Of a stretch of 41,858 nucleotides of DNA, positions 666 through 15,257 are shown in pieces. Each line of letters opens with the position of its first letter. Within the stretch, counting starts at the first letter, position 1. A program made the position numbers and the translations under genes. Source of the DNA: Mycoplasmatota bacterium (GTDB taxonomy: Bacteria > Bacillota_I > Bacilli_A > Izemoplasmatales > Hujiaoplasmataceae); contig JAEIOE010000016.1 in NCBI GenBank assembly GCA_016342455.1, forward strand, positions 1 to 41,858, in the 5' to 3' direction. The notes under the pieces were generated by a model. It saw nothing but the letters and a program-made list of their open reading frames with translations. It was not told the origin of the DNA and ran no database searches.

Positions 666-2315
666 CTAGTAGACACAGACCTCACTTTCCGCAGTATGTA
701 TTGTTTTTCTTATTAAATATTCTTTAGAAATATAATTTAACTTATGAACTGGTTTATCTAATTGCCCATTTTCAAACCTAATTACAAATTCCAGATTATC
801 TCTTTCTCTAACTATGACATAATTAAATAGTTCTTTAAAAGGAAATTCTTCAATAGTACTTATTGGATTCTTAAAACCTCTCAGTATAGCTTTTGTTTTC
901 TGGATTATGAAATCAACGTTATGAGTAGTTAAAAGCATATTTTTATATTGTACTATCTGATTACTAATAGATAATTTATGATGCAAGAGTTGATTATGAA
1001 CTGTTTTGCTAAACTCATCTTTATCTAATAATGCCAGTTTATTTCTATTTTGTAATAACTCGTTTTCTAACCTAATGATTTCATTTTTCATTTTCAGTAT
1101 TTCAGGGTGGTTTTCTAGAGTGGTTTTTAACTCGTTTAGAAAATCACCTTTTTTCTTTATTATCATGTTAATGTGTTCCATTAATATTTCATCAAATGTA
1201 TCTGCGAATAACGATTCACTTTTACAAGTTTTTCTTATCCTGTTCGATGAGCAGTAGAACATTCTGGTTCTGTATTTTTCATTAGGGTGATTGATTCTTA
1301 ACTGATAGTTTTTACCACATCTTGGACACTTTATAAAATTGTTATATATTGATACATTCTTCTTTTGATTCCTTAAGGTTTTCTTGTCAAGAGTATGATT
1401 GTACCTAATTCCTTTTTGCTTTCTTAAATCCTGGACTTTATTCCATTTATCTTCAGAAATAATTGCTGGATGTGTATTCTTCACGTAATATTTGGGTAAG
1501 AAATTTTGCTCCTTCATTTGATTCTTATTTCCTACAGCCCTTCTTGCTGATTTCTGAAGAAGAGCATTACCAGTGTATTTTTCATTGATTAATATGTTTC
1601 GAATTCCAGTTGAGTTATAGTTGACTCCTTTTAGTTTTGTTTTTAAACCCTTTTTAGTTAGATAAGTACATATACTATTATATGAATATCCTTTTAGATA
1701 TAGTTCATATATCTTACGTACTATTATTGCTTCTGCATCATCAATTATTATATTGTTGTCTTTGTCTCTTTGATAGCCCAGAACTTGCGACGTAACCAAG
1801 TGAATTTGGCCCTGTTGAAATCTTTTTCTTACACCCCACTTCACATTCTCACTAATGATTCGGGCTTCTTCCTCGGCCATTCCAGCCAATACAGAAATAA
1901 CGAACTCTATCTTAGGGTCAAATGAGGATATGTTTTCCTTCTCAAACCAAACTTCAGTATTATATTCTTTGAGTTCTTGTATTATTGATAGGCAGTCAAT
2001 TGTGTTTCTAGCAAACCTGGATATTGATTTAGTTATTATCATGTCAATATTGCCAGCTTTAGCTAATGTCACCATTAAATTTAACTGATTTCTATACTTG
2101 ATATTGGTTCCACTTTTACCTTGATCAGAATAGACTCCTACGAAGTTCCACTCCGCATTTTTATTTATCATTTTAGTGTAAGTTTGAATTTGTAACGCTA
2201 GGGATGTTTCCTGAATTTCTTTGTTTGTTGAAACTCTTGCATATGCACAAACTTTACGTTTTTGTTGTAGTCTTTCATGTCTTTCTAAGTTAAGTATTTC
2301 TACTACATTACTCAT
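666..2315 (-). CDS. large serine recombinase (second of a tandem pair)
   Basis: Site-specific DNA recombinase of the large serine family, about 549 aa. An N-terminal resolvase domain (about residues 20-170) has the catalytic serine in YARVST (Ser29) and the conserved ITKSISRFARN helix. A recombinase domain follows (about 190-290), then a zinc ribbon opening with CPRCGK and a coiled coil of about 90 residues, the normal layout for phage and ICE integrases. An upstream in-frame TTG at 2327 exists. I prefer the ATG at 2313-2315, 1 nt after the stop of the preceding recombinase and preceded by GGTG, which implies translational coupling. The paired, similar but non-identical layout recalls CcrA/CcrB and other two-recombinase elements. 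Whether both are needed for integration is inference. Confidence 0.92.
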   Translation of the reverse strand: MSNVVEILNLERHERLQQKRKVCAYARVSTNKEIQETSLALQIQTYTKMINKNAEWNFVGVYSDQGKSGTNIKYRNQLNLMVTLAKAGNIDMIITKSISRFARNTIDCLSIIQELKEYNTEVWFEKENISSFDPKIEFVISVLAGMAEEEARIISENVKWGVRKRFQQGQIHLVTSQVLGYQRDKDNNIIIDDAEAIIVRKIYELYLKGYSYNSICTYLTKKGLKTKLKGVNYNSTGIRNILINEKYTGNALLQKSARRAVGNKNQMKEQNFLPKYYVKNTHPAIISEDKWNKVQDLRKQKGIRYNHTLDKKTLRNQKKNVSIYNNFIKCPRCGKNYQLRINHPNEKYRTRMFYCSSNRIRKTCKSESLFADTFDEILMEHINMIIKKKGDFLNELKTTLENHPEILKMKNEIIRLENELLQNRNKLALLDKDEFSKTVHNQLLHHKLSISNQIVQYKNMLLTTHNVDFIIQKTKAILRGFKNPISTIEEFPFKELFNYVIVRERDNLEFVIRFENGQLDKPVHKLNYISKEYLIRKTIHTAESEVCVY

Positions 2316-2316
2316 T

Positions 2317-4017
2317 TTATACACCAAATTTAAGTATCTGATAGTTTACATAGTATTTTGGATTTGAACTCTCTATCCTTTGGCTATGAAGTAATTGATG
2401 TTTGTTAGTTTGCATGATATCCTCTAATATACTTTCGGTAGATATATCTTTATTACCAATAACAAAGATGGCATCGTGTGAACTAGTTGATATTATGACT
2501 TTAAATATGCTCTTAATTATCGTTTGGTTAAGCGGAAGGTACCCATTTAGAAAATCACCCATTTGTTTGATTCGTTCTTCATGGAGACGTTTATCTACAA
2601 TTAAACTATTTTTATTTTGTAATAAGACTTTGAAATCAATTAATTTGCTCTTTTTATCATCGTAAAGTGCCCTATAAAAATCTGTGTTTTCTTTAACAGA
2701 TTCAACGTTAATGTTGATTATTTCTTTTATTTCATTTTCGGTTTTAGTAATTTGATTCTTAATGTGTTCAATTTCTTTATCTGATTTTGAAGTATCTAAA
2801 CTTGATTTAACGAGATTTAAAGTGTCATTAAGGATATCATCGTTGTAAATATCTAAATTCTTTATAGCATCTATGATAGCTAACTTGAGCGTTTCTTGGT
2901 CTATGGGCTTGTTAGTGCAGTTAGCTGCTTTATCTCTATATCTATTCTTGCAGGATAAAGTTATTCTTTGAGAAGCTTTTCCGTAATTGTAGTAATGTCT
3001 ATTCATTGGTTTTCCACAGTGAATACAATATACAATTCCACTGAGTGGATACTTGTTTGTGTATCTTGATTTTCCACCCTTTTCATTTCTCTTTTTCTTG
3101 AGGGCCTGAACAAACTCGAATTTTTTTCTTGGAATAATTGCTTCATGATTGTTTTTGATGTAATACTTTGGAGCTTGTCCTGTATTCTTAACTGATTTAT
3201 GGGTTAAGTAATTAGTAACTACCCGTTTTTGCAGAATAGCATCTCCTGAATACTTTTCATTGGTTAAGATAGAAGAGACAGTGGCGGGTTTCCAAAAAAT
3301 CTCTCCTCGACCATTCTTTATATTATTAATAGTTAAAAAATCAACTATTTGCTTAAGGGAAGAACCGGCGATATACATGTTGAAAATCATTATAACAGTT
3401 TTAGCTTCTGTTTTATTAATGACTATTTTTCCATTCTCATCTTTATCGTATCCAAGGAATCGCTTTGTATTGATGTGAACCTTCCCTTCCTTGAATCGTT
3501 TTTGAAAACCCCATTTAACATTCTCGCTTATATTTCTAGCTTCCTCTTGAGCAATTGAAGAGAAGATGGTAAGCATAAAATCAATTTTAGTATCACTTGA
3601 ATATAAATTCTCTTTTTCAAAGAATACCTCAACATTGTAGTCTCTTAATTCTCTTACAACAGTAAGACAATCAACGGTGTTTCTTGCAAATCTCGATAAT
3701 GACTTTGTAATTATCATATCTAACTTCCCATTTCTAGCATCCGATATCATTCTTAGGAAGTCTGTTCGCTTCTTCATACCTGTTCCTGATATGCCTTCAT
3801 CAGCATACATTCCCATAAATTCCCAGTCTTCATTCTTTTGTATTTGATTTGTAAATTCTCTGATTTGTGCATTGTAACTGTGAATTTGGTCATCTTGATC
3901 TGTAGATACTCTAGCATAAGCACAAACTCTACGTTTTGGTTTTTCAATTGGAAGTCCTTTTTTATCTTCAAAGAATGGCATTTCTGGTTGAATAACTATT
4001 ATTTCTTTATCTTGCAT
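2317..4017 (-). CDS. large serine recombinase (first of a tandem pair)
   Basis: Second large serine recombinase, about 566 aa. Resolvase domain with the nucleophile serine in AYARVST (Ser38), the ITKSLSRFARN motif and the EEARNISENVKWG linker into the recombinase domain. A zinc ribbon (CIHCGKP, later SCKNRY and NC) and a coiled-coil segment follow. The open frame reaches 4053, but the ATG at 4015-4017 has a perfect GGAGG 8 nt upstream and is the likely start. Its stop is separated from the next recombinase start by one base. A small ORF with its own strong ribosome site lies directly upstream, so the three form one leftward operon. It probably integrates and excises the element to its right. 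Confidence 0.92.
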   Translation of the reverse strand: MQDKEIIVIQPEMPFFEDKKGLPIEKPKRRVCAYARVSTDQDDQIHSYNAQIREFTNQIQKNEDWEFMGMYADEGISGTGMKKRTDFLRMISDARNGKLDMIITKSLSRFARNTVDCLTVVRELRDYNVEVFFEKENLYSSDTKIDFMLTIFSSIAQEEARNISENVKWGFQKRFKEGKVHINTKRFLGYDKDENGKIVINKTEAKTVIMIFNMYIAGSSLKQIVDFLTINNIKNGRGEIFWKPATVSSILTNEKYSGDAILQKRVVTNYLTHKSVKNTGQAPKYYIKNNHEAIIPRKKFEFVQALKKKRNEKGGKSRYTNKYPLSGIVYCIHCGKPMNRHYYNYGKASQRITLSCKNRYRDKAANCTNKPIDQETLKLAIIDAIKNLDIYNDDILNDTLNLVKSSLDTSKSDKEIEHIKNQITKTENEIKEIININVESVKENTDFYRALYDDKKSKLIDFKVLLQNKNSLIVDKRLHEERIKQMGDFLNGYLPLNQTIIKSIFKVIISTSSHDAIFVIGNKDISTESILEDIMQTNKHQLLHSQRIESSNPKYYVNYQILKFGV

Positions 4018-4090
4018 AAATATTTCCTCCTTTTTCATTACTATATACATCACTCAAAAAGCAACATAAATCAAGTGATATAGTTAATGT

Positions 4091-4222
4091 TTATTGTTTT
4101 TCACTTTCATATATTATTATTAATTTAGACAAAGAATTGTACCATTCCATACCATTGATATTTTTTGACTCGTAAAGCTTATCTAGTATTGTCTTCATGA
4201 TCGTAAATCTTGTTTTATCCAT
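4091..4222 (-). CDS. small SHOCT-like protein, 43 aa
   Basis: Short ORF upstream of the recombinase pair, encoding 43 residues (start MDKTRFTIMK, end ESEKQ). GGAAAGGA stands 6 nt before the ATG, an excellent ribosome site. The pattern ILDKLYESKNINGMEWYNSL resembles the short SHOCT fold (leucine, glycine-like turn, acidic/aromatic helix) that often precedes recombinase genes in Firmicute elements. That assignment rests on pattern only. It lies between a minus-strand terminator and the recombinase gene, so it heads the recombinase operon. It could also be an unrelated small regulatory protein. Confidence 0.55.
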   Translation of the reverse strand: MDKTRFTIMKTILDKLYESKNINGMEWYNSLSKLIIIYESEKQ

Positions 4223-4247
4223 TATGTGTCCTTTCCAAATAAAAAAA

Positions 4248-4266
4248 GGATTGCAGAAAGCAATCC
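4248..4266 (-). terminator. terminator of the leftward repressor gene
   Basis: Stem GGATTGC / GCAATCC, 5-nt loop, followed on the minus strand by seven T (complement of 4241-4247). It separates the repressor gene from the small ORF and recombinases, implying the latter have their own or a read-through promoter. Confidence 0.8.
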
Positions 4267-4363
4267 TCAAAAGGAAATGATAAAGTATTCAAATATTCCT
4301 AACTTACCGGATACAAGTATATCACTTTGATTTTAAAAAGTATATGAACTTTAAGCACAATTT

Positions 4364-4960
4364 TTAGAAGAAATGTTTAATATCCATTTTCTTATCTAGA
4401 GTAGCAAAATATACACCCTTATATATGATGTTTTCTGCTCGTGCTTTATTAAAATACAACGGTTCTTCATTTATGTAGAAGTGTCCGCCTCCGCTAGAGT
4501 TGTAAAATACTTTTGAAATATATGTCTTGTTATAGTAGTCAAATAGCATTACTAGGCTTTGCTGATTTGTGTCTGTTCTCCAGAAAAAATCACTTAGTAA
4601 ATCATTTTGCTTAACTACAATTACATCATCTCTAATGGTAGAGATACATAGCGGCATTACTTCCTTCAGCTCATTCTCCACGTATTCGAAGTATCTGTAG
4701 GCTATAGATTTATCGTTCATTAGAGCGTATGGGTTTCCAACAATAACATCAATGGATACATTATAGAAGCCTGAAAGCTTAATTAGATCATAAATACCTA
4801 TATCTCTCAATCCAGTTTCATAATTAGAATAGGCTTGTCTTGATTTTTCGATAATCTTTGCTACATCATAAGTAGATAAGTTGTGTTTTACTCTCAATCT
4901 TTTGAGACTAGTGCTTATAAAAAACTTGTTTAAAGAATCTTGTGTTTTCAATTCTTGCAT
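4364..4960 (-). CDS. XRE-family repressor
   Basis: Helix-turn-helix regulator, 198 aa. Residues about 15-70 form a standard HTH_3 domain (LKRLRVKHNLSTYDVAKIIE, then a SRQAYSNYETG recognition helix). The C-terminal half (about 95-198) is beta-rich and ends FNKARAENIIYKGVYFAT. It recalls the dimerisation fold of LexA/CI-type repressors, but I see no clear Ser-Lys protease pair. The gene is transcribed divergently from the small HTH gene at 5195. Its promoter has consensus -35 and -10 boxes with a candidate operator in the spacer. By position it is the lysogeny-type master repressor of the element, as CI in phages or Stl in phage satellites. That role is inferred. Confidence 0.85.
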   Translation of the reverse strand: MQELKTQDSLNKFFISTSLKRLRVKHNLSTYDVAKIIEKSRQAYSNYETGLRDIGIYDLIKLSGFYNVSIDVIVGNPYALMNDKSIAYRYFEYVENELKEVMPLCISTIRDDVIVVKQNDLLSDFFWRTDTNQQSLVMLFDYYNKTYISKVFYNSSGGGHFYINEEPLYFNKARAENIIYKGVYFATLDKKMDIKHFF

Positions 4961-4992
4961 GATCTGCCTCTTTCAAAATTTATTATCACTAA

Positions 4993-5022
4993 ATTATATA
5001 GCAACAAATGTTACCTTGTCAA
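4993..5022 (-). promoter_or_regulatory. repressor promoter with internal operator half
   Basis: On the minus strand TTGACA (complement of 5017-5022) and TATAAT (complement of 4993-4998) are separated by 18 bp. The spacer includes GCAACAAAT (5001-5009), whose reverse complement recurs at 5090-5098 in front of the divergent gene. Repression at this site would give autoregulation. Confidence 0.75.
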
Positions 5023-5098
5023 TAGTTAATGTGTACAATAACCATTAAAACAATAGCAAAATAGTGTAAATCGGACATCTCATGTCACGATTTGTTGC
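5001..5098. promoter_or_regulatory. inverted 9-bp operator pair in the divergent intergenic region
   Basis: GCAACAAAT at 5001-5009 and ATTTGTTGC at 5090-5098 are exact inverted copies 80 bp apart. One sits in the leftward promoter; the other lies about 50 bp upstream of the rightward -10 (TATAAT, 5147-5152). This is the expected layout for a repressor that bridges and shuts both promoters. Confidence 0.5.
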
Positions 5099-5194
5099 CA
5101 AACTGAAAAAAGTGTTTTTAATTATTTTAGAGAATATTTTTTGTATTATAATATTAATTACCGTCTATTTTTTATAACAGATTGGAGGTTAATA

Positions 5195-5485
5195 TTGGAT
5201 AGAAATAATATAGGTGAAAAAACAAAATCAAGGCGAGTGATTTTACAAAGAGTATACCTTATTGATAGAAGGGTTTCATTAAGTTTATCTGTAGAACTTG
5301 TTTCAAGAAAGTTAAATGTAAGCGCCAATTACTATTATCAAATAGAAAATGGTCAGAAAGGTAAAAACTTGCCTGTTTGTCTTTTGTTAAAAATAGCGAA
5401 AGCACTAGAAATGGATAAGCACGATATACTTGATTTTGAGAATGAATATATTGAATTGCTGAGAGTGTATAATCAAAATGGTTAA
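5195..5485 (+). CDS. small XRE-family HTH protein
   Basis: A 96-aa DNA-binding protein. I place the start at TTG 5195-5197, because GGAGG (5184-5188) lies correctly before it. The upstream ATG at 5141 would lie inside the -10 promoter region (TATAAT 5147-5152). Residues about 15-80 form an HTH_3 domain (SLSLSVELVSRKLNVSANYY, then QIENGQKG). It is the first gene of the rightward operon, divergent from the larger repressor, and its stop overlaps the start of the tyrosine recombinase by 8 bp. By position it is a Cro- or Str-like early regulator. That role is inferred from the layout, not from sequence. Confidence 0.8.
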   Translation: MDRNNIGEKTKSRRVILQRVYLIDRRVSLSLSVELVSRKLNVSANYYYQIENGQKGKNLPVCLLLKIAKALEMDKHDILDFENEYIELLRVYNQNG

Positions 5486-6410
5486 TATAAGGTTTAGAAC
5501 TAAAGAAGCTAAAGAGTTCTATGAAAAAGTTAATGATTATATTGATTACATTGATATAAAAGAAGCTTCAAAAGAAGGCTATAAAAAGATATTGATAGAG
5601 TATGTATTATATACAGATAGATTACCTGACTTACCAATTAGGCATGATGTTATTGTGTATCGAGAAAGACTCAAAGTCAGATTAAAAGCATCATCAGTTC
5701 AAAAACATATTGTAGTTATAAGAAATTTTTATAGATGGTACTATTCTATGGGCTATGGTCATAATATAGCTGAAGGGATAAAAGGAATGAAAATAGAATC
5801 TGATTTCAAAAGAGAAGCATTATCAGTAAAAGATTCTATTAGGCTTTTGAAAAGAGCCGAATTCAATGCAAAAAAAGATGTTATAGGTTTTAGAAACTAT
5901 GCTGTAATATCTATTTTAATTACTACTGGATTAAGGACTATTGAACTCGAAAGAGCAGATGTTGAAGATATTGTTCATGTTAATGATGAATATGTTCTTT
6001 ATGTTATGGGTAAAGGTCATGACGATAAAGATGCGTACGTTAAATTATCTAAACAAGTCTACAATATAATTGAGGAATATCTCATAGCTAGATCGGATTC
6101 ATATACACCTTTATTCATAAATCATACATGTCACTCGTTGGGCTCGAGAATGAGGACAAGAACCATACGAGGGGTTGTTAAGGAAACTCTACGTCAAATA
6201 GGCATAGATAACCCTAAATACTCTGCACACAGCCTTAGACATACTACAGCAACTCTAGCTTTATATGAAGGAGCAAATATAGAGGATACTCAGCAGTTGT
6301 TAAGGCACAAGGATCCATCAACGACACAAATCTACGTTCATAAAGAGAAGAAACGGAATAGCAACTATGAATACAAGATAAGTGATACATTGTTTGGAGC
6401 AAAAAAATAA
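5478..6410 (+). CDS. tyrosine recombinase (phage/Xer-type integrase)
   Basis: Site-specific recombinase of 310 aa. It has an N-terminal SAM-like core-binding domain (about 15-105) and a catalytic domain (about 115-295). The active-site set is complete: Arg153 in TGLRTIE, Lys179 in GKGHD, His251 and Arg254 in HSLRHTTA, His277 in LLRHKD, and Tyr286 in QIYVH. Length and layout match XerC/D-like and plasmid/phage integrases. It lies in the rightward early operon, overlapping the upstream HTH gene by 8 bp. A tyrosine recombinase in an element that already has two serine recombinases is redundant unless it acts on another site. The 19-bp repeats at 7385 and 15288 are candidate targets. Confidence 0.93.
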   Translation: MVNIRFRTKEAKEFYEKVNDYIDYIDIKEASKEGYKKILIEYVLYTDRLPDLPIRHDVIVYRERLKVRLKASSVQKHIVVIRNFYRWYYSMGYGHNIAEGIKGMKIESDFKREALSVKDSIRLLKRAEFNAKKDVIGFRNYAVISILITTGLRTIELERADVEDIVHVNDEYVLYVMGKGHDDKDAYVKLSKQVYNIIEEYLIARSDSYTPLFINHTCHSLGSRMRTRTIRGVVKETLRQIGIDNPKYSAHSLRHTTATLALYEGANIEDTQQLLRHKDPSTTQIYVHKEKKRNSNYEYKISDTLFGAKK

Positions 6411-6431
6411 TACTAACAAGAGGAAAAAACA

Positions 6432-7178
6432 ATGATAAAAGAATTCGCGAACGAAGAGTTCGGAAAAGTAAGAGTTACATTGAAAGAAGAAGAACCATAT
6501 TTTTGCCTAGTTGATGTAGCAAGAATGTTTGATATCTCTAATGTATCAGAAATAAAAGCATCAATTCCTAGTTTAGATTTTGAGTCTATAGAAATGAAAT
6601 CAGGGAATAAGATAGTTAAAAGGATATTTATTAAACCACAATATATAAGTACAGTATTGTTTGCTTCTAAGCATCCAGAAGCGGATACAATATATGAATG
6701 GTTGTATCGAACGGTACTCCCACAGTTGTTAAAATACGGAGACTACAAGGTGGATGATTTTCAGGATCCAATAGTTGTCGTTAAATTTCTAGAAGAATTT
6801 CAAAATATGAGACTTAGAAATACAGTTTTGGAAACACACAAAAAAACAAATGCACCAAAGATTAAATATCTAAACAGATTATTAGGCTCAGAAACATGTG
6901 TTGATCTAGATGTTGTTCCGGAAATGCTAAAGTATAAAGGAATAGGAAATATGGAACTTATGAAAGTTCTACGAGCAACTCATATATTTAAAGATTGTAA
7001 TAAGCCATGTCAAGAATTTTGTGATAACAAATGTTTTAGAGTAGTTGAAGCTAAATCTGTATGTGGTAATAGTGTTATAACATCAAATCGTACTTTTGTT
7101 TACAAAAAAGGAATTACTCTAATTGAGAAAATACTATCTGAATATGAGGTGAAACGCAATGCACGAGAAAAGCGATAA
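6432..7178 (+). CDS. BRO-N phage antirepressor
   Basis: Phage antirepressor-like protein, 248 aa. Residues about 5-105 form a BRO-N domain (FGKVRVTLKEEEPYFCLVDV, then ISTVLFASKHPEA and a closing YRTVLPQLLKYG). The C-terminal part (about 115-248) is KilA-C-like, with a Cys-rich patch CNKPCQEFCDNKC that could bind a metal. AGAGGA precedes the ATG. Such proteins usually bind and inactivate a CI-type repressor during induction, so the XRE repressor at 4364 is a plausible target. The end overlaps the next start by 20 bp, indicating co-translation. Confidence 0.85.
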   Translation: MIKEFANEEFGKVRVTLKEEEPYFCLVDVARMFDISNVSEIKASIPSLDFESIEMKSGNKIVKRIFIKPQYISTVLFASKHPEADTIYEWLYRTVLPQLLKYGDYKVDDFQDPIVVVKFLEEFQNMRLRNTVLETHKKTNAPKIKYLNRLLGSETCVDLDVVPEMLKYKGIGNMELMKVLRATHIFKDCNKPCQEFCDNKCFRVVEAKSVCGNSVITSNRTFVYKKGITLIEKILSEYEVKRNAREKR

Positions 7179-7341
7179 TTACTATTCAGTAACTGATCTA
7201 ATAGATATCTTGGAAGTAACCAGGAGAACAATATTAAAATACATCAAAAAAGGAAAACTAAGAGCATTTAAGCTTGGTAACCAATGGAGAGTAACAGAAG
7301 AAGAATTACAGAAGTTCATAAACAGAAATTCAAACTATTAA
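7159..7341 (+). CDS. excisionase-type HTH protein
   Basis: A 60-residue DNA-binding protein of the excisionase/MerR-like HTH_17 family: YYSVTDLIDILEVTRRTILK followed by the beta-wing IKKGKLRAFKLGNQWRVTEE. A GAGGTGA site precedes the ATG, which lies inside the end of the antirepressor gene. Family members bend DNA to direct a tyrosine recombinase toward excision. Position two genes after the integrase supports a Xis role. It could instead be a transcription regulator, since the fold is shared. Confidence 0.85.
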   Translation: MHEKSDNYYSVTDLIDILEVTRRTILKYIKKGKLRAFKLGNQWRVTEEELQKFINRNSNY

Positions 7342-7384
7342 AAAATAACTCAATATTCTGACATATTTAACAGTACCGATAATG

Positions 7385-7403
7385 TATGTAACTGGTGTTA
7401 CTA
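7385..7403 (+). repeat. 19-bp direct repeat, copy 1
   Basis: TATGTAACTGGTGTTACTA, containing the inverted repeat GTAAC-TGGT-GTTAC. An identical copy lies at 15288-15306. The pair brackets the replication and cargo genes. Candidate recombination site or operator; see findings. Confidence 0.7.
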
Positions 7404-7482
7404 ATGATATATTTAATGCTAGTTTCGACTATGTTTAGGTTCTGTTATATGTCGGTTTATTGTTATATCGAAAGGTAATATT

Positions 7483-8355
7483 ATGGCACGACCATTTAAA
7501 CAAGGATTACAGTATTTTCCTATGGACGTGCATATTTTTAAAGATCAAAAACTGGTGGATATGCATTACTATTTTGGACCCTTAGGTCTTCACTTGTATA
7601 CACAACTCTTATTACTTGTCTATGAGAATGGGTATTACTTAGAGAAGTCCGAAGATGAACTCGCTGCACAGTTGCATCGAATTTTAGGTACTCGTTGGGT
7701 AAAGCTATCGAAAGTGGTAGAAATGATTCGCGGTTGTGTTGAGTTTAATCTCCTTGAAAGAGAGCTGTATACACAAGGTGTTATTACTTCTCTAGCTATC
7801 CAGAAACAATATATTCTTTCTACAAAAAGAAGAAAGACTGTGAATATTGACAAGTATTGGTTACTTGATCAGGAAGCCATGGATGAATTAGGATCTTTTT
7901 TAAGTATGCAAAAAAATAGAGTTAATGTATGCAATAACCTAGTTAATGTCAACAATAACCCGGTTAATGTTGACATTAATACACAAAGAGAAAGAGAAAT
8001 TGAAAAAGAAAGAGATGTAATAGATATAAAAGATAAAAGCATTTACGGGCTACCCGAAATGCATTATTTAACAAAATTTTTAACTGATAGAAAATACATC
8101 CAACAAGATAGCAGTGATATTGTTCTGTACAATAAGCTGTTTGAAGAAGTAACAAATCGATATAGCCATTATGATGTAATGGTAGTTGTTAGGTACATTG
8201 TTACTTATAGCAGGAATGCAGAACCTAAGATTGATGATAAGTTTGCATTTATGAAAAAATCAGTTATTAACAATTTGAAAGAGTATAAGATAAAACAAGG
8301 GGGTGAATCTTTTGAAAAATGGATTGAATCAGGATTTTTACAAGTGGATAGATGA
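7483..8355 (+). CDS. DUF4373 replisome organizer (Lin1244/Lin1753-type)
   Basis: Phage-type replication initiator, 290 aa. The N-terminal domain (about 1-130) is the DUF4373/Lin1244 winged-helix region: it opens MARPFKQGLQYFPMDVHIF and carries the HYYFGPLGLHLYTQLL segment. A low-complexity linker with three VNV units (about 147-165) and a charged stretch lead into a C-terminal helical domain (about 185-275) like DnaD-type helicase-loader adaptors. The linker DNA is a 21-bp iteron array (7921-7980) and may be the origin bound by this protein. Reads into the next gene by overlap. Confidence 0.85.
   Translation: MARPFKQGLQYFPMDVHIFKDQKLVDMHYYFGPLGLHLYTQLLLLVYENGYYLEKSEDELAAQLHRILGTRWVKLSKVVEMIRGCVEFNLLERELYTQGVITSLAIQKQYILSTKRRKTVNIDKYWLLDQEAMDELGSFLSMQKNRVNVCNNLVNVNNNPVNVDINTQREREIEKERDVIDIKDKSIYGLPEMHYLTKFLTDRKYIQQDSSDIVLYNKLFEEVTNRYSHYDVMVVVRYIVTYSRNAEPKIDDKFAFMKKSVINNLKEYKIKQGGESFEKWIESGFLQVDR
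7921..7980 (+). repeat. 21-bp iterons inside the initiator gene (candidate origin)
   Basis: GTTAATGT occurs at 7921, 7942 and 7963, an exact 21-bp period, and AATAACC follows at 7933 and 7954 in the same phase. Purine-rich, easily melted DNA follows (7981-8040). Initiator-internal iterons next to an AT-rich tract are the classical plan of lambda-like and satellite origins. The same bases encode a 7-aa repeat, so protein-level selection is an alternative explanation. Confidence 0.5.
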
Positions 8356-8740
8356 CGTAAGGAAAGCCATTAGAAAGAAAGATGAGTTAGAAAAGAAGAT
8401 AAAGTATTATGAGAGAAGGCTTAACTCTTGTAAAGGTGTAACTTATGATGTTCTAGGTGGAAGAGGGAATTCTAGATCTAATGAAGACAATCAAATTTAT
8501 TGGATAGACAGAATTTCAAAAACAAAGAAAGCAATATCATATTTAAATAAACCAATAAATTATTATGAATGTTTCAAAATACAAGTAGGCTCTCAAGAGA
8601 AGCTTTTACTTCAGGGATATGTCATAAAATGTAAATCAATTAGGCAAATAGCAGAGGAACTAAATGTTTCTTCATCAATGATAATGAAAATAATGAATAA
8701 CTTATCAAAGAAGTATAGCAAGGAAAATATAACTAATTAA
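8312..8740 (+). CDS. phage-like HTH regulator (ArpU/sigma region 4-like)
   Basis: Basic protein of about 142 aa. The frame can open at GTG 8303, but AGGGGGTG (8298-8305) is the ribosome site, so TTG 8312 with 6-nt spacing is the likely start. The N-terminal half is a charged helix (KKDELEKKIKYYERRLNSCK). The C-terminus has a sigma-70 region 4-like helix-turn-helix (SIRQIAEELNVSSSMIMKIM). Length, layout and position after the initiator match ArpU/RinA-type late regulators of Firmicute phages and satellites. It overlaps the preceding gene by 44 bp. Exact target unknown. Confidence 0.65.
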   Translation: MKNGLNQDFYKWIDDVRKAIRKKDELEKKIKYYERRLNSCKGVTYDVLGGRGNSRSNEDNQIYWIDRISKTKKAISYLNKPINYYECFKIQVGSQEKLLLQGYVIKCKSIRQIAEELNVSSSMIMKIMNNLSKKYSKENITN

Positions 8741-8849
8741 ATTAATGTATAGAAAACTATTCAAATCAATTGAAAAAAGTGGTATTATATTTATAAGAAA
8801 AAAACAGGATTTTTTCACAGAAATTAAATGTTATAATGGGAGGTTAAGC

Positions 8850-10265
8850 ATGAATACAGAATTACTATATACAAAAAATTCTAGGTCTTATGAAAAAAGC
8901 TTAGACTCTCAGTATAAGAAAAATAATGGTATTTATTATACAGACATAAGTTTAGCAAAGCAAATGATTGATGCGTTAAAACTAAGCAATATTGAAGATA
9001 TGAATATAATTGATCCTACTTGTGGAACAGGTAGTTTTTTATATGCGGCTAGTGAGTATGGCTTTAAGAATATTTTTGGTTTAGATATAGATAAAGGCGC
9101 AATTAAAATCGCAAAGAATAATGTTCCAAACGGAACATTTAAAGTTTATAATTCAATTTCTAATTCGTCTTCAAAATTAATGAAATTATTAAAGTTAAGA
9201 GAAAGGTTCCATGTTGTCATTGGAAATCCTCCTTATGCTCCAATAACAAATGAAACATATGGTTCGAGTAATGATTATTTATTTCAACGAACTGTTAAGA
9301 GTTCAGGAGATAATTTATTTGTTGCGGGATTATTGCGAGCTAAAGAAATGGTTTGTGAAGGCGGGTTGGTTTCATATATAATCCCCAAGAATTTTTTACA
9401 TGTAAACTCATATAGTTTACTTAGAAGAGAATTATTAAGAGACTATTCTATTATGTCTATTGTTGATATAGGAATGTATTTTAAGAATGTAAGAGGAGAA
9501 CAAATAATATTAACCTTCAAGAAATCAAAACCGAGTAATAATATGATAAAGATTTATTCTCTTATTGACTCTAACTTTATGTATATGACAATGATATCTC
9601 AGGATTTTTATAAAGATACAATTGTTTTATTCGACAGTGAAGAAGATTTTACAATATATAATAAGTTTAAGAACTCTTATACAACATTGAATGATTACGT
9701 AAGTGGATATGTTGGTAGAGGAAAGAAAAAAGGAAAAGGTGTTATTTCTGGAAAAGACATTAGAAAGTTTGGTCTTAAAAACAACAGAAAATTATCTGCG
9801 GGAAATAAAATATTTATCCAAAATATATATAGCAAAGAAGCAGGAATAATCGCTTGTTTTGGCGGAGATTTAGACGCTTCAGAAACAGTTACAGTTTTTA
9901 CTGATGGAGATGCTACTATGTGCAGGTATGTTTTAGGAATTATTCATTCAAGATTAATTAATTATTTTTTACATAGATATTGTTTTAATAAATCAAGTGT
10001 TACTATGCATGTAGATGCAAAATATCTTAAAAAGATACCATTTATTGTTTCAGAGCAATACTTTGATATAGTATTAGAATATGTAGATTTACTTGAAAGT
10101 AGCAAATACATGAGTGAAACTTGGTTCATATATCTTGAAGAACTGAATAGAATAGTTTATAAGATATACAATATTGAAGATAGTGAGAGAGATTTTATTG
10201 ATTTAAAAGTCAAATTAGTACAATCAAGAAAGTGGGTAGCATCGAATGGCAAGAAGAGCAAATGA
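8850..10265 (+). CDS. N6-adenine DNA methyltransferase (gamma type) of an R-M operon
   Basis: S-adenosylmethionine-dependent DNA methylase, about 472 aa. Motif I is DPTCGTGSF (about 55-63) and the catalytic motif IV is NPPY (126-129), the order and sequence of gamma-class adenine methylases such as M.TaqI. The C-terminal half, with YVGRGKKKGKGVISGKDI and the SVTMHVDAKYLKKIPFIV end region, is the target recognition domain. The frame extends upstream to 8745, but GGGAGG (8838-8843) just before ATG 8850 fixes the start. It overlaps the second methylase gene by 20 bp. Two methylases of different class in one operon fit a non-palindromic recognition sequence where each strand needs its own enzyme. 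The site is not predictable by eye. Confidence 0.88.
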   Translation: MNTELLYTKNSRSYEKSLDSQYKKNNGIYYTDISLAKQMIDALKLSNIEDMNIIDPTCGTGSFLYAASEYGFKNIFGLDIDKGAIKIAKNNVPNGTFKVYNSISNSSSKLMKLLKLRERFHVVIGNPPYAPITNETYGSSNDYLFQRTVKSSGDNLFVAGLLRAKEMVCEGGLVSYIIPKNFLHVNSYSLLRRELLRDYSIMSIVDIGMYFKNVRGEQIILTFKKSKPSNNMIKIYSLIDSNFMYMTMISQDFYKDTIVLFDSEEDFTIYNKFKNSYTTLNDYVSGYVGRGKKKGKGVISGKDIRKFGLKNNRKLSAGNKIFIQNIYSKEAGIIACFGGDLDASETVTVFTDGDATMCRYVLGIIHSRLINYFLHRYCFNKSSVTMHVDAKYLKKIPFIVSEQYFDIVLEYVDLLESSKYMSETWFIYLEELNRIVYKIYNIEDSERDFIDLKVKLVQSRKWVASNGKKSK

Positions 10266-11013
10266 CTTAACAGGAAAAGAGTGGTTACAAAATTCATTTA
10301 GTATTTGGAGAGATTTGCGTAAAGACGCTGAAGAAAAAAAGCTAGAACATCCAGCTTCTTACCCAGTTGCTTTGTGTGAAAAGCTTATAAAGACATTTAC
10401 TCGAAAAGATTTTAGGGTGTTAGATCCATTTAATGGTGTTGGCTCTACTTTGGTTGCGGCTAAGAATTTGGGTGGATCAGGTGTCGGAATTGATTTATCT
10501 GAAGATTACTGTAATATTTCAAAGAAAAGATTAGATTTTGATTCTAGATTTGAAGTAGTTAACGGAGATAGTTTTAAGGTTTTAAAAGATGAATCTTTAG
10601 GAGAATTTGATATATGTGTTACATCTCCACCGTATTGGGATATTTTAAATATGAAGAGAAGTGCAGATATGAGAAAAACAGTTAATTATTCTGATAGTTC
10701 TGTTGATTTAGGTAATATCTCAGATTATGATTTATTTCTAGATAATCTTAAGGAATTGTTTTCAAATGTATATTTGAGATTGAAACCTGACACATATTGT
10801 TTAATTAATGTTATGGATCTTCGCAAGAAAAGTGAATTTTACCCATTGCATAGCGACTTAGCATATAAGTTAAGGGAAGTTGGATTTGTTTTTGATGATT
10901 TAATTATTTGGGATAGGCAACTTGATTATAATAACATGAGACCGTTAGGGTATCCATATAGATTTAGAATTAACAAAGTGCATGAGTATATTCTTATTAT
11001 GCACAAGAAGTAG
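10246..11013 (+). CDS. beta-class DNA methyltransferase (SPPY; N4-cytosine or N6-adenine)
   Basis: DNA methylase of 255 aa. DPFNGVGSTL (60-69) is the AdoMet-binding motif I, and TSPPYW (126-131) the catalytic motif IV. SPPY is most often seen in N4-cytosine enzymes, though N6-adenine activity is possible. The protein ends FRINKVHEYILIMHKK, the usual closing strand of this family. It is shorter than stand-alone methylases with a large recognition domain, so specificity lies in loops (about 135-175 and 215-235). It starts inside the end of the first methylase gene and is followed 8 bp later by the LAGLIDADG-like gene, all one operon. Confidence 0.88.
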   Translation: MARRANDLTGKEWLQNSFSIWRDLRKDAEEKKLEHPASYPVALCEKLIKTFTRKDFRVLDPFNGVGSTLVAAKNLGGSGVGIDLSEDYCNISKKRLDFDSRFEVVNGDSFKVLKDESLGEFDICVTSPPYWDILNMKRSADMRKTVNYSDSSVDLGNISDYDLFLDNLKELFSNVYLRLKPDTYCLINVMDLRKKSEFYPLHSDLAYKLREVGFVFDDLIIWDRQLDYNNMRPLGYPYRFRINKVHEYILIMHKK

Positions 11014-11021
11014 GTGAACTT

Positions 11022-11912
11022 ATGAATGTTCAAATGGCATATTTATTAGGGATGATTACTGGTAATGGCGAAATTAAAAGAGGAAATTCTACAACAAGAG
11101 TTTCAATAGCGATACCACATAAAAATCAGAAAACATATAATGATCGTGATGTTAAAATTTATGTTCGTGCAAGCATTACAGACATAAAACAGATTTTAGA
11201 ACCTTTAGTAGGTACTTTATTACAACATACGCAAAGAAATAGTGAGACAACTCTATATTTTGAAAAATCCAACGAGGACTATTTAATAAGAGAGATTATT
11301 AGATTTATTGCAGGATCAGTAAGTCATGAAGATACAAGGATAAATCCGTACTTTTTTAGTTGTTCAAGAGATGAAAAAGTGTATTTTCTTCGTGGTTTAT
11401 CTGATGTGACTGGATATATTAGAGAAAGTAATTATTTTTTCAAAAAACAGATTCATAGAGTATATATTGAAGTTCCACATAATTGGTTTTTAGTAATAGA
11501 TATTTGTAATTTACTAAAATCAATTGATATACCTGTACAGAATATTGACTGGGCTCATCCTAATATGAGAGACGGATATTTGACAAAATATAATCAAGGC
11601 TATCATACATTTTGGAAAAAAGAACATCAGATCAAGATTTATGCAAATGAATTTCTACCTGTTGGATTCGGTATTATCCATAAGCGTGATGCTTTAAATG
11701 CTTTATCTGAAGATTTAGTCAATTATTATGCTTCAGAAGGGAAAAATGTAATAGATAAAACTCATAAATTTTATTGGGATTCAAATAGGATAAGTAACAA
11801 AGTAAAACCTCATCACCCTGGAGAATCAGATAGTTTTATACCAGAAGAGATTAGAGGAATGCATTTTAATAGATGGACAGAAATCGCTGATAAATTGGGT
11901 TATAAAGAATGA
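11022..11912 (+). CDS. LAGLIDADG-like protein in the R-M operon
   Basis: A 296-aa protein with two LAGLIDADG-type helices: LLGMITGNG (8-16) and FLRGLSDVTG (122-131). Each opens an alpha-beta half, and the second half ends with IKIYANEFLPVGFGIIHKRD. This is the layout of monomeric two-repeat homing endonucleases of about 300 aa. At the positions that carry the metal-binding acid in active enzymes (as Asp and Glu in I-DmoI) this protein has Asn15 and Thr130, so ordinary catalysis is doubtful. TAGGTGA precedes the ATG. Its stop overlaps the ATG of the nuclease gene (ATGA). It lies where a restriction subunit is expected, so DNA recognition for the nuclease or a modified cleavage role is my inference. 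Confidence 0.65.
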   Translation: MNVQMAYLLGMITGNGEIKRGNSTTRVSIAIPHKNQKTYNDRDVKIYVRASITDIKQILEPLVGTLLQHTQRNSETTLYFEKSNEDYLIREIIRFIAGSVSHEDTRINPYFFSCSRDEKVYFLRGLSDVTGYIRESNYFFKKQIHRVYIEVPHNWFLVIDICNLLKSIDIPVQNIDWAHPNMRDGYLTKYNQGYHTFWKKEHQIKIYANEFLPVGFGIIHKRDALNALSEDLVNYYASEGKNVIDKTHKFYWDSNRISNKVKPHHPGESDSFIPEEIRGMHFNRWTEIADKLGYKE

Positions 11913-12385
11913 AAGAGTTAGAACTGTATATGCCAATGTGTATTTGGCTTGAAAGCTATATGAAAGACAATTATAAGGGATATAAAGTAATTGTTGTTGA
12001 CGCACATTCTGAGAGACTTGATAGAGTGTTAAAGAAATACGATATTACATATGATTTAGCTACAGGAGTGGATATTCAAATTGACGTATTAGGAATAGCT
12101 AGAAGAAAAGATAAAGTAAAATTGATTTTTATTGAAGCAAAGATTACTAGATTAACACTAAGGGATTTGGGTCAATTATGGTCTTATTGTAAATTGATTA
12201 ACCCCGAAGAGGCATTTTTGTTTTCGTCACATAGTTTAGGGAGTTTAAATAAAATTCTAAACAATTATGGCAGAGAAGATTTATTAGATTTTGGTAATAC
12301 AAAGAAAATAAAAAAGATGATGGTTGGTGTTTGGGATATAAAGCAGAAATCGCCTAATCTTCTAACAATTATACCTAAATTATAA
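11909..12385 (+). CDS. PD-(D/E)XK nuclease, probable restriction endonuclease
   Basis: A 158-aa protein with the core of the PD-(D/E)XK fold: VDIQIDVLGI (Asp55 or Asp59), then FIEAK (Glu76, Lys78), then LGQLWSY with Gln89 and the strand EEAFLFSS. These match the catalytic Asp, the E-x-K pair and the Gln of the RecB/MrR-like branch. It is small for a complete type II enzyme, so a partner for DNA recognition is likely. The LAGLIDADG-like protein, encoded immediately upstream with ATGA overlap, is the obvious candidate. Together with the two methylases it makes an R-M operon, on gene order and motifs only. Confidence 0.7.
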   Translation: MKELELYMPMCIWLESYMKDNYKGYKVIVVDAHSERLDRVLKKYDITYDLATGVDIQIDVLGIARRKDKVKLIFIEAKITRLTLRDLGQLWSYCKLINPEEAFLFSSHSLGSLNKILNNYGREDLLDFGNTKKIKKMMVGVWDIKQKSPNLLTIIPKL

Positions 12386-12395
12386 GGAGGTTATT

Positions 12396-12851
12396 ATGGC
12401 AAGTATTTTAAATAATAGAGCAGAAACAATTAATTTCAGTTCTTTAAATGATTATTATGAGTTTATTGGATATTTATGCACACCAAATAGAGTAGTTTCT
12501 ATTGATGCTGAAGTTCCAAGTAATTTGGTAAAGCAGTTTCTAGCAAATTATCCTAAAGGTCATTACAGGATTAAACCTAATCCAGTAACCCCAAGTGGTC
12601 TTCCCAAGAAATTTGGTGCACAGTTTAGAATTAATCTACGTAATATAACCAATCATCCTTTGAGTATTAGCAAGTATTTAAAAAGAGGAACAGGGACGAC
12701 TGTTGTAAAAAGGATAAATAAGAGTAAGTTAGTAGAAGATTTAGTTTTGAACCATGGATTTGTATTCGGTAATATGCAGAATGTGACACATATAAAATCA
12801 TTGGTGCCAAAACAGTATGTTACAGATTTTGATAAAGGATATAATTTATAA
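12396..12851 (+). CDS. unknown protein, last gene of the R-M operon
   Basis: I do not recognise this 151-aa protein. It starts after a perfect AAGGAGG site 10 bp past the nuclease stop and ends just before a strong terminator, so it belongs to the R-M operon. It is basic, has no signal peptide or membrane segment, and shows a run of basic and turn residues (KGHYRIKPNPVTPSGLPKKF) followed by FRINLRN and KYLKRGTGTTVVKRINKS. This could bind nucleic acid. Possible roles are a third restriction subunit, a control protein or an accessory DNA-binding factor. No helix-turn-helix is evident. Confidence 0.75.
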   Translation: MASILNNRAETINFSSLNDYYEFIGYLCTPNRVVSIDAEVPSNLVKQFLANYPKGHYRIKPNPVTPSGLPKKFGAQFRINLRNITNHPLSISKYLKRGTGTTVVKRINKSKLVEDLVLNHGFVFGNMQNVTHIKSLVPKQYVTDFDKGYNL

Positions 12852-12987: not shown

Positions 12988-13860
12988 TTGAGTATCTTGG
13001 AAAAAAGCACAAAAAAGAATTATGATTCATTGAAACGTAGGATAGAATACTTTAACGATAATTATCATCAGTTTCAACTCAAGCATATTGAAGGAATCGT
13101 TAAAAATATAATATACTTTAATGGCATAGTATTATTTGGTAGACTTAGAGATGCTGAATATAAAACTGATTACAATAGTAATGAAACAGTTTTTCCGCGA
13201 CTTAGAGTAGTAAATGGAGAAGATTTTTCTGTCTTTAGAGACATTAATCAATATTACAATTTGCCATCTGAAAAAGTTAAATGGGAGGGAAGACTTAATA
13301 CTATTAATGAATCGCTATTGTATGCTGCACATAAATCATTCATTGTTACAGTATTTGAGACAGGAGCAAAGGAAGGAGACACAGTATTATTGATTTTATA
13401 TAAGAAGCAACCTAATTGTTCTATAAGATTACGAAAAATGGCTGTAGATGATGACCAAATTATTAATCTGGATAATTATACTGCTAAGATTAATGATTTA
13501 AAACTCAATTTTATAAAATACTGGTTAACAAAAACTTGCAATCCTCATTTTGAGGAAATTACATATAGAATTACTAATTCAATAAAGAAAATATATTTTA
13601 CAGAAAAGAATCAAGACCGAATAGATGGATTTATTTATCCATCTACTACGAGAAGGAAGAATGACTTAAATGTAGCTTTTAAATCCTCGGGTATAAGAAA
13701 AATATATGTTGAATCTGCTTTTTATGGCAAGGTTCTAAAAGTAGGCCATAATAGTTTATTGATTAGATCAAATTATTGTTTTAAAGGTGTTCAGAATAGG
13801 CGTATATGCTGGGAGTTCAAGAATGATTATATAGATTATGCTTTTATAGTGCAAAGCTAA
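12988..13860 (+). CDS. RES-like domain protein, candidate toxic effector
   Basis: A 290-aa soluble protein. The segment from about residue 45 to 140 follows the plan of RES domains: an early Arg region (LFGRLRDA, Arg52/54), then GRLN (101-104), LLYAA (110-114) and a Glu (Glu124 in TVFETG), then a hydrophobic strand. RES proteins of the MbcT type degrade NAD+ by an ADP-ribosyltransferase-like fold. The match here is by pattern only, and the protein is longer than the classical 150-200 aa form. Start is TTG 12988 with GGGAG upstream. It lies between a terminator and a KAP NTPase gene with a 59-bp gap. A defence role as effector of a sensor NTPase is inference. Confidence 0.5.
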   Translation: MSILEKSTKKNYDSLKRRIEYFNDNYHQFQLKHIEGIVKNIIYFNGIVLFGRLRDAEYKTDYNSNETVFPRLRVVNGEDFSVFRDINQYYNLPSEKVKWEGRLNTINESLLYAAHKSFIVTVFETGAKEGDTVLLILYKKQPNCSIRLRKMAVDDDQIINLDNYTAKINDLKLNFIKYWLTKTCNPHFEEITYRITNSIKKIYFTEKNQDRIDGFIYPSTTRRKNDLNVAFKSSGIRKIYVESAFYGKVLKVGHNSLLIRSNYCFKGVQNRRICWEFKNDYIDYAFIVQS

Positions 13861-13919
13861 ATAAGGGAAGTAAAGGAGATGTAGAGTATTAGTCGTATAT
13901 TATACTCGCTATAAATAGA

Positions 13920-15257
13920 ATGAAAAGAGATTTATTACCAACTGAAAAAAATATCATTGAAACATTGAAAAATGATTCAATAGAAAGAAATAAGCAAGTC
14001 AAACAAGTTTTAGATATAATCAGTAACGACTTCAAGGATGGTGGAGTAATTTTTATTGATGGAAAATGGGGGTCAGGTAAGACCTTTTTTGTAAAACAAC
14101 TACAACATATATTAGATTGTGAGTCTGGACTGAAAATAATTAACAGTGAGCTTTCAAATTATGGAACTATTAATATAGATATTACAGAACCTATGATGAC
14201 GCTATATTTTAATGCTTGGGAGAATGATTTTCATATGGATCCATTATTGTCAATGACTCATAAACTTATATCAGCAAGTTCTGGCTACGTTTATCAAGGT
14301 GATGTGATTAAGAAGAACCAAAGTGTTTTTATAAGAATGTCAAAAGTAATAAAGTTTGTTTCAGGAGGAAGATATGATATTTCTGAGTTTGAATCTGAAA
14401 AGCAAGATACGTTCAAAGTAATTGAAGTGCAAGAGGAAATACATAGTATTTTTAATAGATTAGTTGATTCAATTTTAGCTGAAAGAGCAAACAGGTTAGT
14501 GTTGTTTATAGATGAACTGGATAGATGTAAACCAGATTATACTGTTAGACTTTTGGAAAGATTAAAACATGTATTAAATAATGATAAAATCACTACAATT
14601 ATATCAGTTAACTTAGATGAACTTGGTGCTACAGTAAAAAAATTATATGGAGAAACATTCAATCATAATAATTATTTCAATAAATTTTATGACTTGAAAA
14701 TCCATCTTGACGAGATTAATAGATTTGATTATTTAGTACAACAGGATTCGGATAAGTTAGCTTTCTTAAGTCAATATGTTTTTAATGTTTCAGTTAGTTG
14801 TAGTTTAGAGTACTTTAATTTATCGTTGAGAGAAATAAACGAATATAAAATTTATATCGATAAACTCAAGTCTTTGTTGAAAGGTAACTCGTTCCATATT
14901 CCTAGAAAGAACTCAGTTAATTTTATAGCTTGGATAATAGTTCCATACCTTATTGCACTCAAAATCTCTAACGATTCAATTTACAAATCTGTAACTAAAG
15001 GTAGAAATTCAAGTGATTTTACACAGTATTACTTTTCTGATAAGATGATGCTAGATTTATGTGATTATGTTCTATCTATAGATAATCAGAACTCAGAAAA
15101 AGAGATGAAGTTAAATTATGAAGATGACTTTAAGAAAATTTACAACTTTCTTTTTACAAGTATGCATACTGAATTTGAGCAAATAAAAATATTAAATACA
15201 CTATTTAATAAAAATTCAAAGGATATGATTAGCAGAGTACTTAAAAGTCTTAAATAA
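13920..15257 (+). CDS. KAP-family P-loop NTPase
   Basis: NTPase of 445 aa. Walker A is GKWGSGKT (48-55). The family-specific FNAWEND follows at 97-103 and Walker B is VLFIDELDR (about 194-202), with SVNLDEL sensor-like sequence after it. KAP NTPases are named from Kidins220/ARMS and PifA, the latter a phage-exclusion protein. This one lacks the membrane hairpin often inserted in the domain and should be cytosolic. No ribosome site lies close to the ATG: the nearest, AAAGGAGA at 13872-13879, is separated from it by a small inverted repeat. Paired with the RES-like gene upstream and placed beside an R-M operon, it is a good anti-phage candidate. Confidence 0.85.
   Translation: MKRDLLPTEKNIIETLKNDSIERNKQVKQVLDIISNDFKDGGVIFIDGKWGSGKTFFVKQLQHILDCESGLKIINSELSNYGTINIDITEPMMTLYFNAWENDFHMDPLLSMTHKLISASSGYVYQGDVIKKNQSVFIRMSKVIKFVSGGRYDISEFESEKQDTFKVIEVQEEIHSIFNRLVDSILAERANRLVLFIDELDRCKPDYTVRLLERLKHVLNNDKITTIISVNLDELGATVKKLYGETFNHNNYFNKFYDLKIHLDEINRFDYLVQQDSDKLAFLSQYVFNVSVSCSLEYFNLSLREINEYKIYIDKLKSLLKGNSFHIPRKNSVNFIAWIIVPYLIALKISNDSIYKSVTKGRNSSDFTQYYFSDKMMLDLCDYVLSIDNQNSEKEMKLNYEDDFKKIYNFLFTSMHTEFEQIKILNTLFNKNSKDMISRVLKSLK

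Follow-up and report, generated by a model that had tools for sequence, protein, structure and literature searches.

We analysed contig JAEIOE010000016.1 of a Mycoplasmatota bacterium (assembly GCA_016342455.1), whose 41,858 nucleotides are hereafter called the window, and found a restriction-modification operon at positions 8850–12385. Its four genes, here named M1, M2, P3 and P4, all lie on the plus strand and overlap or nearly touch one another. They stand where the original prediction, a reading of the sequence alone, had placed them. M1 (8850–10265) is an open reading frame (ORF) for an N6-adenine-type DNA methyltransferase with an NPPY motif, which matches the Pfam models Eco57I (61.8 bits) and N6_Mtase (56.1 bits); a weak TaqI_C-like match in its C-terminal region (22.2 bits) stays under the cut-off of 26.5. 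We took the ATG at 8850, preceded by GGGAGG, as its start, and an upstream ATG at 8745 is likewise open. The M2 ORF (10246–11013; 255 amino acids, aa) overlaps the end of M1 and encodes a methyltransferase of the N6_N4 family (N6_N4_Mtase, 110.8 bits) with an SPPYW motif, so that the methylases belong to two classes, NPPY and SPPY, as had been foreseen. P3 (11022–11912; 296 aa) is a two-repeat LAGLIDADG-fold protein without catalytic acids, which we propose as the sequence-recognition subunit on the basis of its alignment, predicted structure and structure matches. P4 (11909–12385; 158 aa), whose start codon overlaps the P3 stop codon (ATGA), is a stand-alone PD-(D/E)XK nuclease domain and, from its model, motif and structure matches, the proposed cleavage subunit.

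A structure of P3 was predicted from an alignment (A1) of the window protein with relatives from 52 of 66 usable loci. The prediction was confident, with a predicted local distance difference test score (pLDDT) of 91.5 and a predicted template modelling score (pTM) of 0.91, and it contains two alpha-beta-beta-alpha-beta-beta repeats packed on the LAGLIDADG helices. When the model was compared with the PDB using Foldseek, 50 of 50 proteins among the matches listed were LAGLIDADG proteins (best E 3.5e-6), and 52 chains reached E ≤ 0.001; LAGLIDADG proteins in the PDB are known as homing endonucleases, maturases and the regulator WhiA. VIA-align matched the model to PI-PfuI with Z 15.1 (root-mean-square deviation 3.0, 190 residues aligned), to I-Tsp061I with Z 14.9, to WhiA with Z 13.4 and to I-DmoI with Z 13.3, while template modelling scores by query length were moderate (0.35–0.51). 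The WhiA match covers residues 1 to 237 or 238 of the P3 model, WhiA being made of a LAGLIDADG domain and a C-terminal helix-turn-helix domain. The LAGLIDADG fold, on which the original prediction had staked its case, is present both in the model and in its PDB matches. At the sequence level P3 had no match in Pfam, NCBIfam or PHROGs, and its lone PADLOC match (E 0.015) was taken as chance; against PDB sequences P3 gave nothing up to E 10, and a profile search likewise gave nothing.

In homing endonucleases an acidic residue ends each LAGLIDADG helix. The first motif of P3, LLGMITGNG (residues 8–16; window 11043–11069, plus strand), falls in a helix spanning residues 3–15 of the model and carries N15 at the acid position. 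The second, LRGLSDVTG (residues 123–131; window 11388–11414, plus strand), falls in the helix of residues 116–130 and carries T130 there. Replacement of both metal-binding acids had been noticed in this one protein, and the alignment extends it to the family: among 67 aligned P3 sequences (the window and 66 loci), 64 carry N at position 15 and the other 3, from Thermoplasmata loci (L061, L064 and L065), carry K, whereas position 130 is T in 67 of 67. Because neither position holds an acid in any of the 67 sequences, the loss is a trait of the P3 family, and an acid at both helix ends, by which a LAGLIDADG homing endonuclease is recognised, is missing throughout. D128, within the second motif, is D in 67 of 67. 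Counting as invariant those columns in which at least 97% of the aligned sequences carry the window's residue, we found 62: 13 among the 115 residues of repeat 1, 31 among the 100 of repeat 2 and 18 among the 81 behind the repeats. In repeat 2, 24 of the 31 invariant columns are polar or aromatic. From this pattern we infer that a fixed DNA-contact surface lies mostly in repeat 2.

The structure of P4, predicted from an alignment (A2) of the window and 47 loci, had a pLDDT of 95.3 and a pTM of 0.90. VIA-align matched it to the N-terminal part of PaqCI and to AF1548 (both Z 9.2), to VC1899 (8.2) and to a Pyrococcus repair nuclease (8.0), followed by EndoMS (7.8), FokI (7.3) and the small subunit of R.BspD6I (7.0); we take these rows up to Z 9.2 to be mainly nucleases of the PD-(D/E)XK fold. 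The catalytic residues that give the fold its name are D59 (window 12083–12085) and E76-A-K78 (12134–12142), spanning 12083–12142 on the plus strand. All 68 sequences (the window and 67 loci) share residues E3, Y7, D59, E76, K78, Q89 and Y93. Each of them thus has the D...(D/E)xK motif of the core fold, as do 10 of 10 sequences when P4 is aligned with distant relatives. The fold is assigned because of this motif and of the make-up of the upper structure-match rows. On the model, P4 is a bare PD-(D/E)XK nuclease domain with little room for recognition, in agreement with the original description of a small nuclease that overlaps P3 and lacks a recognition domain of its own. Sequence comparisons added little: the window P4 had sub-threshold Pfam and NCBIfam matches only, 11 of 48 P4 members weakly matched the YhcG PDDEXK domain (best E 0.0024), and against PDB sequences P4 gave nothing up to E 10, its profile returning one meaningless helicase row at E 0.69.

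P3 relatives were sought with a pattern-based scan that covered 84,980 species, each represented by one genome. In all, 69 loci encode relatives with 45–70% identity to the window protein, near full length except in L068 and L069. Judged by their record titles, many belong to Clostridia and their kin, and others to Bacteroidales, Spirochaetia, Endomicrobia, Alphaproteobacteria, Cloacimonadota and Saccharibacteria; the archaeal relatives are three Thermoplasmata. Some loci are near-copies of one another, the P3 of L008 being that of L058. The closest relatives found, at 79% and 77% identity, lie on two viral contigs with the same gene order, M1, M2, P3, P4 and a fifth gene, P5. P4 stands directly behind P3 in 68 of the 69 genome loci, and at the exception (L069, 5586–5898) the scan matched only a fragment of P3, and no ORF. 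One locus, L066 (3636–4796), is a broken copy with P3 split into two ORFs and P4 shortened. Among 395 genomes of the window's class, a profile search found P3 in seven, two of them with a distant form described below, and a P4 search of 395 genomes of the class (same draw size, same listed handles) found exactly the five genomes with main-form P3, P4 adjoining P3 in each. Among 299 genomes of the phylum that includes the L047 genome, profile A4 hit one distant locus besides the seed genome; among 296 genomes of the phylum that includes the L009 genome, the seed genome was the only hit. Since these phylum searches matched little beyond the seed genomes, the P3 family is rare and scattered.

The methylases around the pair were classified in 78 loci (67 genome contigs, one plasmid, two phages, four viral contigs and four further genomes; the window, L068 and L069 were left out). 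Classes were assigned from single-pass seeds (E ≤ 1e-10, more than 60 bits, within 5.5 kb, same strand), and the counts refer to classes near P3, not to gene numbers; iterated profiles were discarded as they converged on each other. A methylase was assigned in 77 of 78 loci, and in 75 the classes include one of adenine type and one of cytosine type. M1 occurs with M2 in 51 loci, an EcoRI-type adenine methylase occurs with a C5-cytosine (C5) methylase, separate or fused, in 17, and M1 occurs with a C5 methylase in place of M2 in 7. At the remaining three loci (L046, L056 and L089) the set is incomplete, as the contig or the fetched stretch stops there. Pfam confirmed EcoRI_methylase together with a C5 methylase in both fused proteins examined, those of L071 and L049; in L067 it confirmed the C5 class. 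A quick tree was made of 80 P3 rows, two of which lack a methylase set, with L066 left out and with a warning of long branches; on it parsimony required five changes of methylase set, the distant group included. Two changes are needed for the M1 and C5 combination and three for the EcoRI-type and C5 combination, and for each combination two are forced by well-supported branches. The methylase sets are exchangeable while P3-P4 stays constant. Such constancy amid interchangeable protectors is expected if P3 and P4 set the site. That M2 is replaced by a cytosine methylase while M1 is kept, and that M1 is replaced by an adenine methylase, supports M1 as the adenine and M2 as the cytosine methylase, M2 probably acting at N4. 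Two methylase classes in 75 of 78 loci fit an asymmetric site, although they do not prove one.

The most compact form of the system was found on NZ_CP060181, a 6.5-kb plasmid of the cultured strain Lactiplantibacillus plantarum P9. A 700-aa fused methylase, P3 and P4 are annotated on it together with a replication protein, a DUF536 protein, a YafQ-type toxin and a small hypothetical protein. The restriction-type genes among them are only the fused EcoRI-type and C5 methylase, P3 and P4, in a gene table that is incomplete in this collection. With so compact a gene set, P3 and P4 are the sole annotated endonuclease candidates on the plasmid. The same trio of fused methylase, P3 and P4 is present in two phage records from human faeces, and in all three records P3 and P4 are annotated as 'hypothetical protein'.

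Profile searches also detected three distant loci, L080 (genome G102), L081 (G185) and L093 (G752), in which a C5 methylase gene is followed by genes for a P3-like protein of 438–491 aa and a PD-(D/E)XK protein of 193–221 aa. G102 has one C5 gene within 13 kb, and G752 one within the 8 kb that reach to its contig end. The C5 gene of G185 is in three pieces (L110, 5101–6150), and a further C5 gene follows the nuclease gene after about 3 kb. L080 and L081 are rows of the profile used in the class and phylum searches, where their E-values arise by construction; their first detection, with profile A1, was independent. The P4 profile matches the small proteins of the three loci with E-values of 2e-7, 1.4e-6 and 2.4e-7, and E3, Y7, D59, E76, K78, Q89 and Y93 are kept in all three. 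L080 and L081 keep the P3 residues Y7, G10, G16, G125, D128, N154, H179-P180-N181, W198, K200, F216, K221, P274, R278 and G279. The main-family invariants R183, K199, E201, H202 and Q203 are changed in both and are, from these comparisons, candidate specificity residues; by eye, L093 keeps a K next to W at position 199. From the alignment and ORFs, the acid positions are occupied by G and I in L080, C and R in L081, and N and R in L093. With the L080 protein as query, plasmids and phages yielded no records other than the four that P3 had already revealed, and viral contigs yielded none.

A further gene, P5 (12396–12851, plus strand), begins 11 bases behind P4 with AAGGAGG ahead of its start; it falls within the range of the original prediction, which did not discuss it. 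It encodes a small protein that we regard as accessory from its recurrence in P3-P4 operons (46 of 78 loci) and beside other restriction-type gene pairs. Residues K72, R78, R106 and G121 are present in 24 of 24 aligned P5 sequences. A P5 search of 296 genomes of the class matched six, four of them without main-form P3; in three of three such genomes inspected, its neighbours are a C5 methylase and a protein that looks HNH-type by eye. Copies away from main-form P3 lie at L100 (4190–4597), L101 (4237–4662) and L102 (1929–2345), and P5 is perhaps a general accessory of restriction systems. In L043 (4220–5308) P5 is joined to a NOV_C domain (Pfam E 2.6e-9), with similar long ORFs in L062 (4925–6004) and L077 (2868–3944), and in L019 (4837–5973) a single ORF matches both M2 and P5.

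The operon is preceded by a mobile-element module at window 666–8740. It includes two serine recombinases on the minus strand (666–2327 and 2317–4053), a helix-turn-helix repressor, a tyrosine integrase, a Bro-N/KilAC antirepressor and a Lin1244-type replication protein. Downstream, window 12988–15257 encodes a 290-aa protein without clear family match and then a KAP-family nucleoside triphosphatase of the candidate defence family PDC-S20 (149 bits). From its surroundings, the operon looks like part of an integrated mobile element.

We favour, with a probability of roughly three in four, a Type II restriction-modification system with a two-subunit endonuclease, in which P3 would read an asymmetric site, P4 would cut and M1 and M2 would protect both strands. 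A methylase linked to an endonuclease gene, as is required of a Type II system, was found in the form of a methylase in 77 of 78 loci and a nuclease-like P4 in 68 of 69. In silico, this reading draws on the folds, the loss of acids in P3, the intact P4 motif, the constant P3-P4 pairing and the adenine-type and cytosine-type methylase classes; DNA reading by P3, the P3-P4 complex, cleavage and the site itself are what we infer from them. P3 would bind and read the site through the beta-sheet saddle of its LAGLIDADG fold, mainly with the second repeat, and would bring P4 to it. A double-strand cut could then come from two copies of P4, in a dimer or a 2:2 complex, or from sequential cutting, and M1 (adenine) and M2 (cytosine, probably N4) would each protect one strand. 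The idea that a LAGLIDADG protein serves as the DNA-reading partner of a separate nuclease, first put forward from the window alone, gains support from the fold, the family-wide acid loss, the bare P4, the constant pairing and the compact plasmid. Several observations weigh on the other side. P3-family matches to Pfam LAGLIDADG models are weak (Hom_end in 5 of 53 members, best E 0.0039; LAGLIDADG_3 in 1 of 53). For P4, Z 9.2 barely exceeds the usual best of 7–8 for models without clear match, no Foldseek match against the PDB reached E ≤ 0.001 (MspJI came closest, at 0.017), and non-nucleases such as the SPM-1 metallo-beta-lactamase occur further down its list. Evolutionary distances of P3 and P4 are correlated (r = 0.80, n = 67), but the correlations of P3 with M2 (0.90, n = 51), P4 with M2 (0.91) and P3 with M1 (0.81, n = 55) are as high or higher, so that co-evolution does not single out a P3-P4 complex. 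Finally, P5 may be a further functional part of the system.

The role of P3 could be different. For the known heterodimeric enzymes BsrDI, BtsI and BspD6I, of Type IIT, passages of a review describe a large subunit that both recognises the site and cuts one of its strands, next to a small subunit without specificity; as a rule two methylases go with them, the site being asymmetric (PMC4081073). The operon resembles them in its two unequal proposed subunits, and two methylase classes stand in 75 of 78 loci; the R.BspD6I small subunit is among the fold matches of P4 (Z 7.0). P3 might accordingly cut one strand with an unconventional active site, for which the H, K, E and D residues that are invariant in it (D128, for one, in 67 of 67) could serve, leaving the other strand to P4. 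We consider this unlikely: no acid occupies either LAGLIDADG position in 67 of 67 sequences, nor in the three distant relatives (G/I, C/R and N/R). Since P3 seems to be without an active site, what defines Type IIT, two different catalytic sites with one per subunit, appears to be absent, and the large subunit differs from theirs in being a LAGLIDADG protein without catalytic acids. A homing endonuclease that had invaded a restriction operon was rejected as a reading on account of the family-wide acid loss and the constant P3-P4 coupling.

WhiA, a LAGLIDADG-fold DNA-binding protein, matches P3 at Z 13.4, and one could picture P3 as a transcription regulator of the operon and P4 alone as the endonuclease. 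This is very unlikely, since a 158-aa nuclease core leaves little room for recognition, and since P3 accompanies P4 in 68 of 69 loci. Even in other phyla P3 remains 45–70% identical to the window protein, although the methylases beside the pair are exchanged. The same constancy of P3 across systems, together with the small size of M2 (255 aa), could suggest a specificity subunit common to the methylases and P4, like the S subunits of Types IIB and IIH. P3 would then have to bind three methylase sets (M1 with M2, M1 with C5, EcoRI-type with C5), and M1 has a TaqI_C-like region of its own, albeit below the cut-off; we hold this to be just as improbable as a regulatory role. Least probable of all is that P4 is a mismatch-repair nuclease accompanying a methylase, Vsr-like or like EndoMS, which appears among its fold matches (Z 7.8). 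Beside P3, 51 of 78 loci have no assigned C5 methylase and would therefore have no deamination of 5-methylcytosine to repair, which makes Vsr-like repair unlikely.

We therefore return to a two-subunit endonuclease in which P3 would read and P4 would cut. P3 shares the fold of the homing endonucleases PI-PfuI, PI-SceI, I-DmoI and I-Tsp061I (Z 13–15) and differs from them in its lost acids (67 of 67) and in its place in a methylase operon with a separate nuclease behind it. As in WhiA/DUF199, the LAGLIDADG fold would have been reused for DNA binding; unlike WhiA, a transcription factor, P3 is tied to a nuclease and methylases. In PaqCI and FokI recognition and cleavage are separate modules. P4 shares the PD-(D/E)XK fold of the cleavage domains of these Type IIS enzymes (Z 9.2 and 7.3), whose modules lie on one chain, whereas here there would be two proteins, the recognition module being LAGLIDADG. 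Among the matches listed in open full text (5.39 million papers, with subscription papers, preprints and REBASE outside the scope), no title or opening of an abstract described a LAGLIDADG restriction subunit. The word LAGLIDADG does not occur in the review of Type II restriction enzymes (PMC4081073); a passage of PMC11997821 mentions LAGLIDADG proteins as homing endonucleases, a passage of PMC4619093 disputes an earlier LAGLIDADG claim for GmrS, and the word was met once each in PMC11279042 and PMC3009677.

With the longer form, the system may extend to a whole class of restriction endonucleases in which a generic PD-(D/E)XK cutter takes its specificity from a dead LAGLIDADG subunit. Nature would then have made its own split 'meganuclease plus FokI', in at least two specificities, one in the widespread two-methylase family and one in the longer form that stands beside C5 methylases in L080, L081 and L093. 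We regard such a class as somewhat more probable than the contrary. If true, the LAGLIDADG fold has been domesticated as the reading head of a restriction enzyme, linking homing to restriction, and specificity and nuclease modules are naturally separated, with the specificity part already catalytically silent. The family also offers a natural experiment, in which the same endonuclease pair is found with adenine and N4/N6-family methylases or with adenine and C5 methylases.

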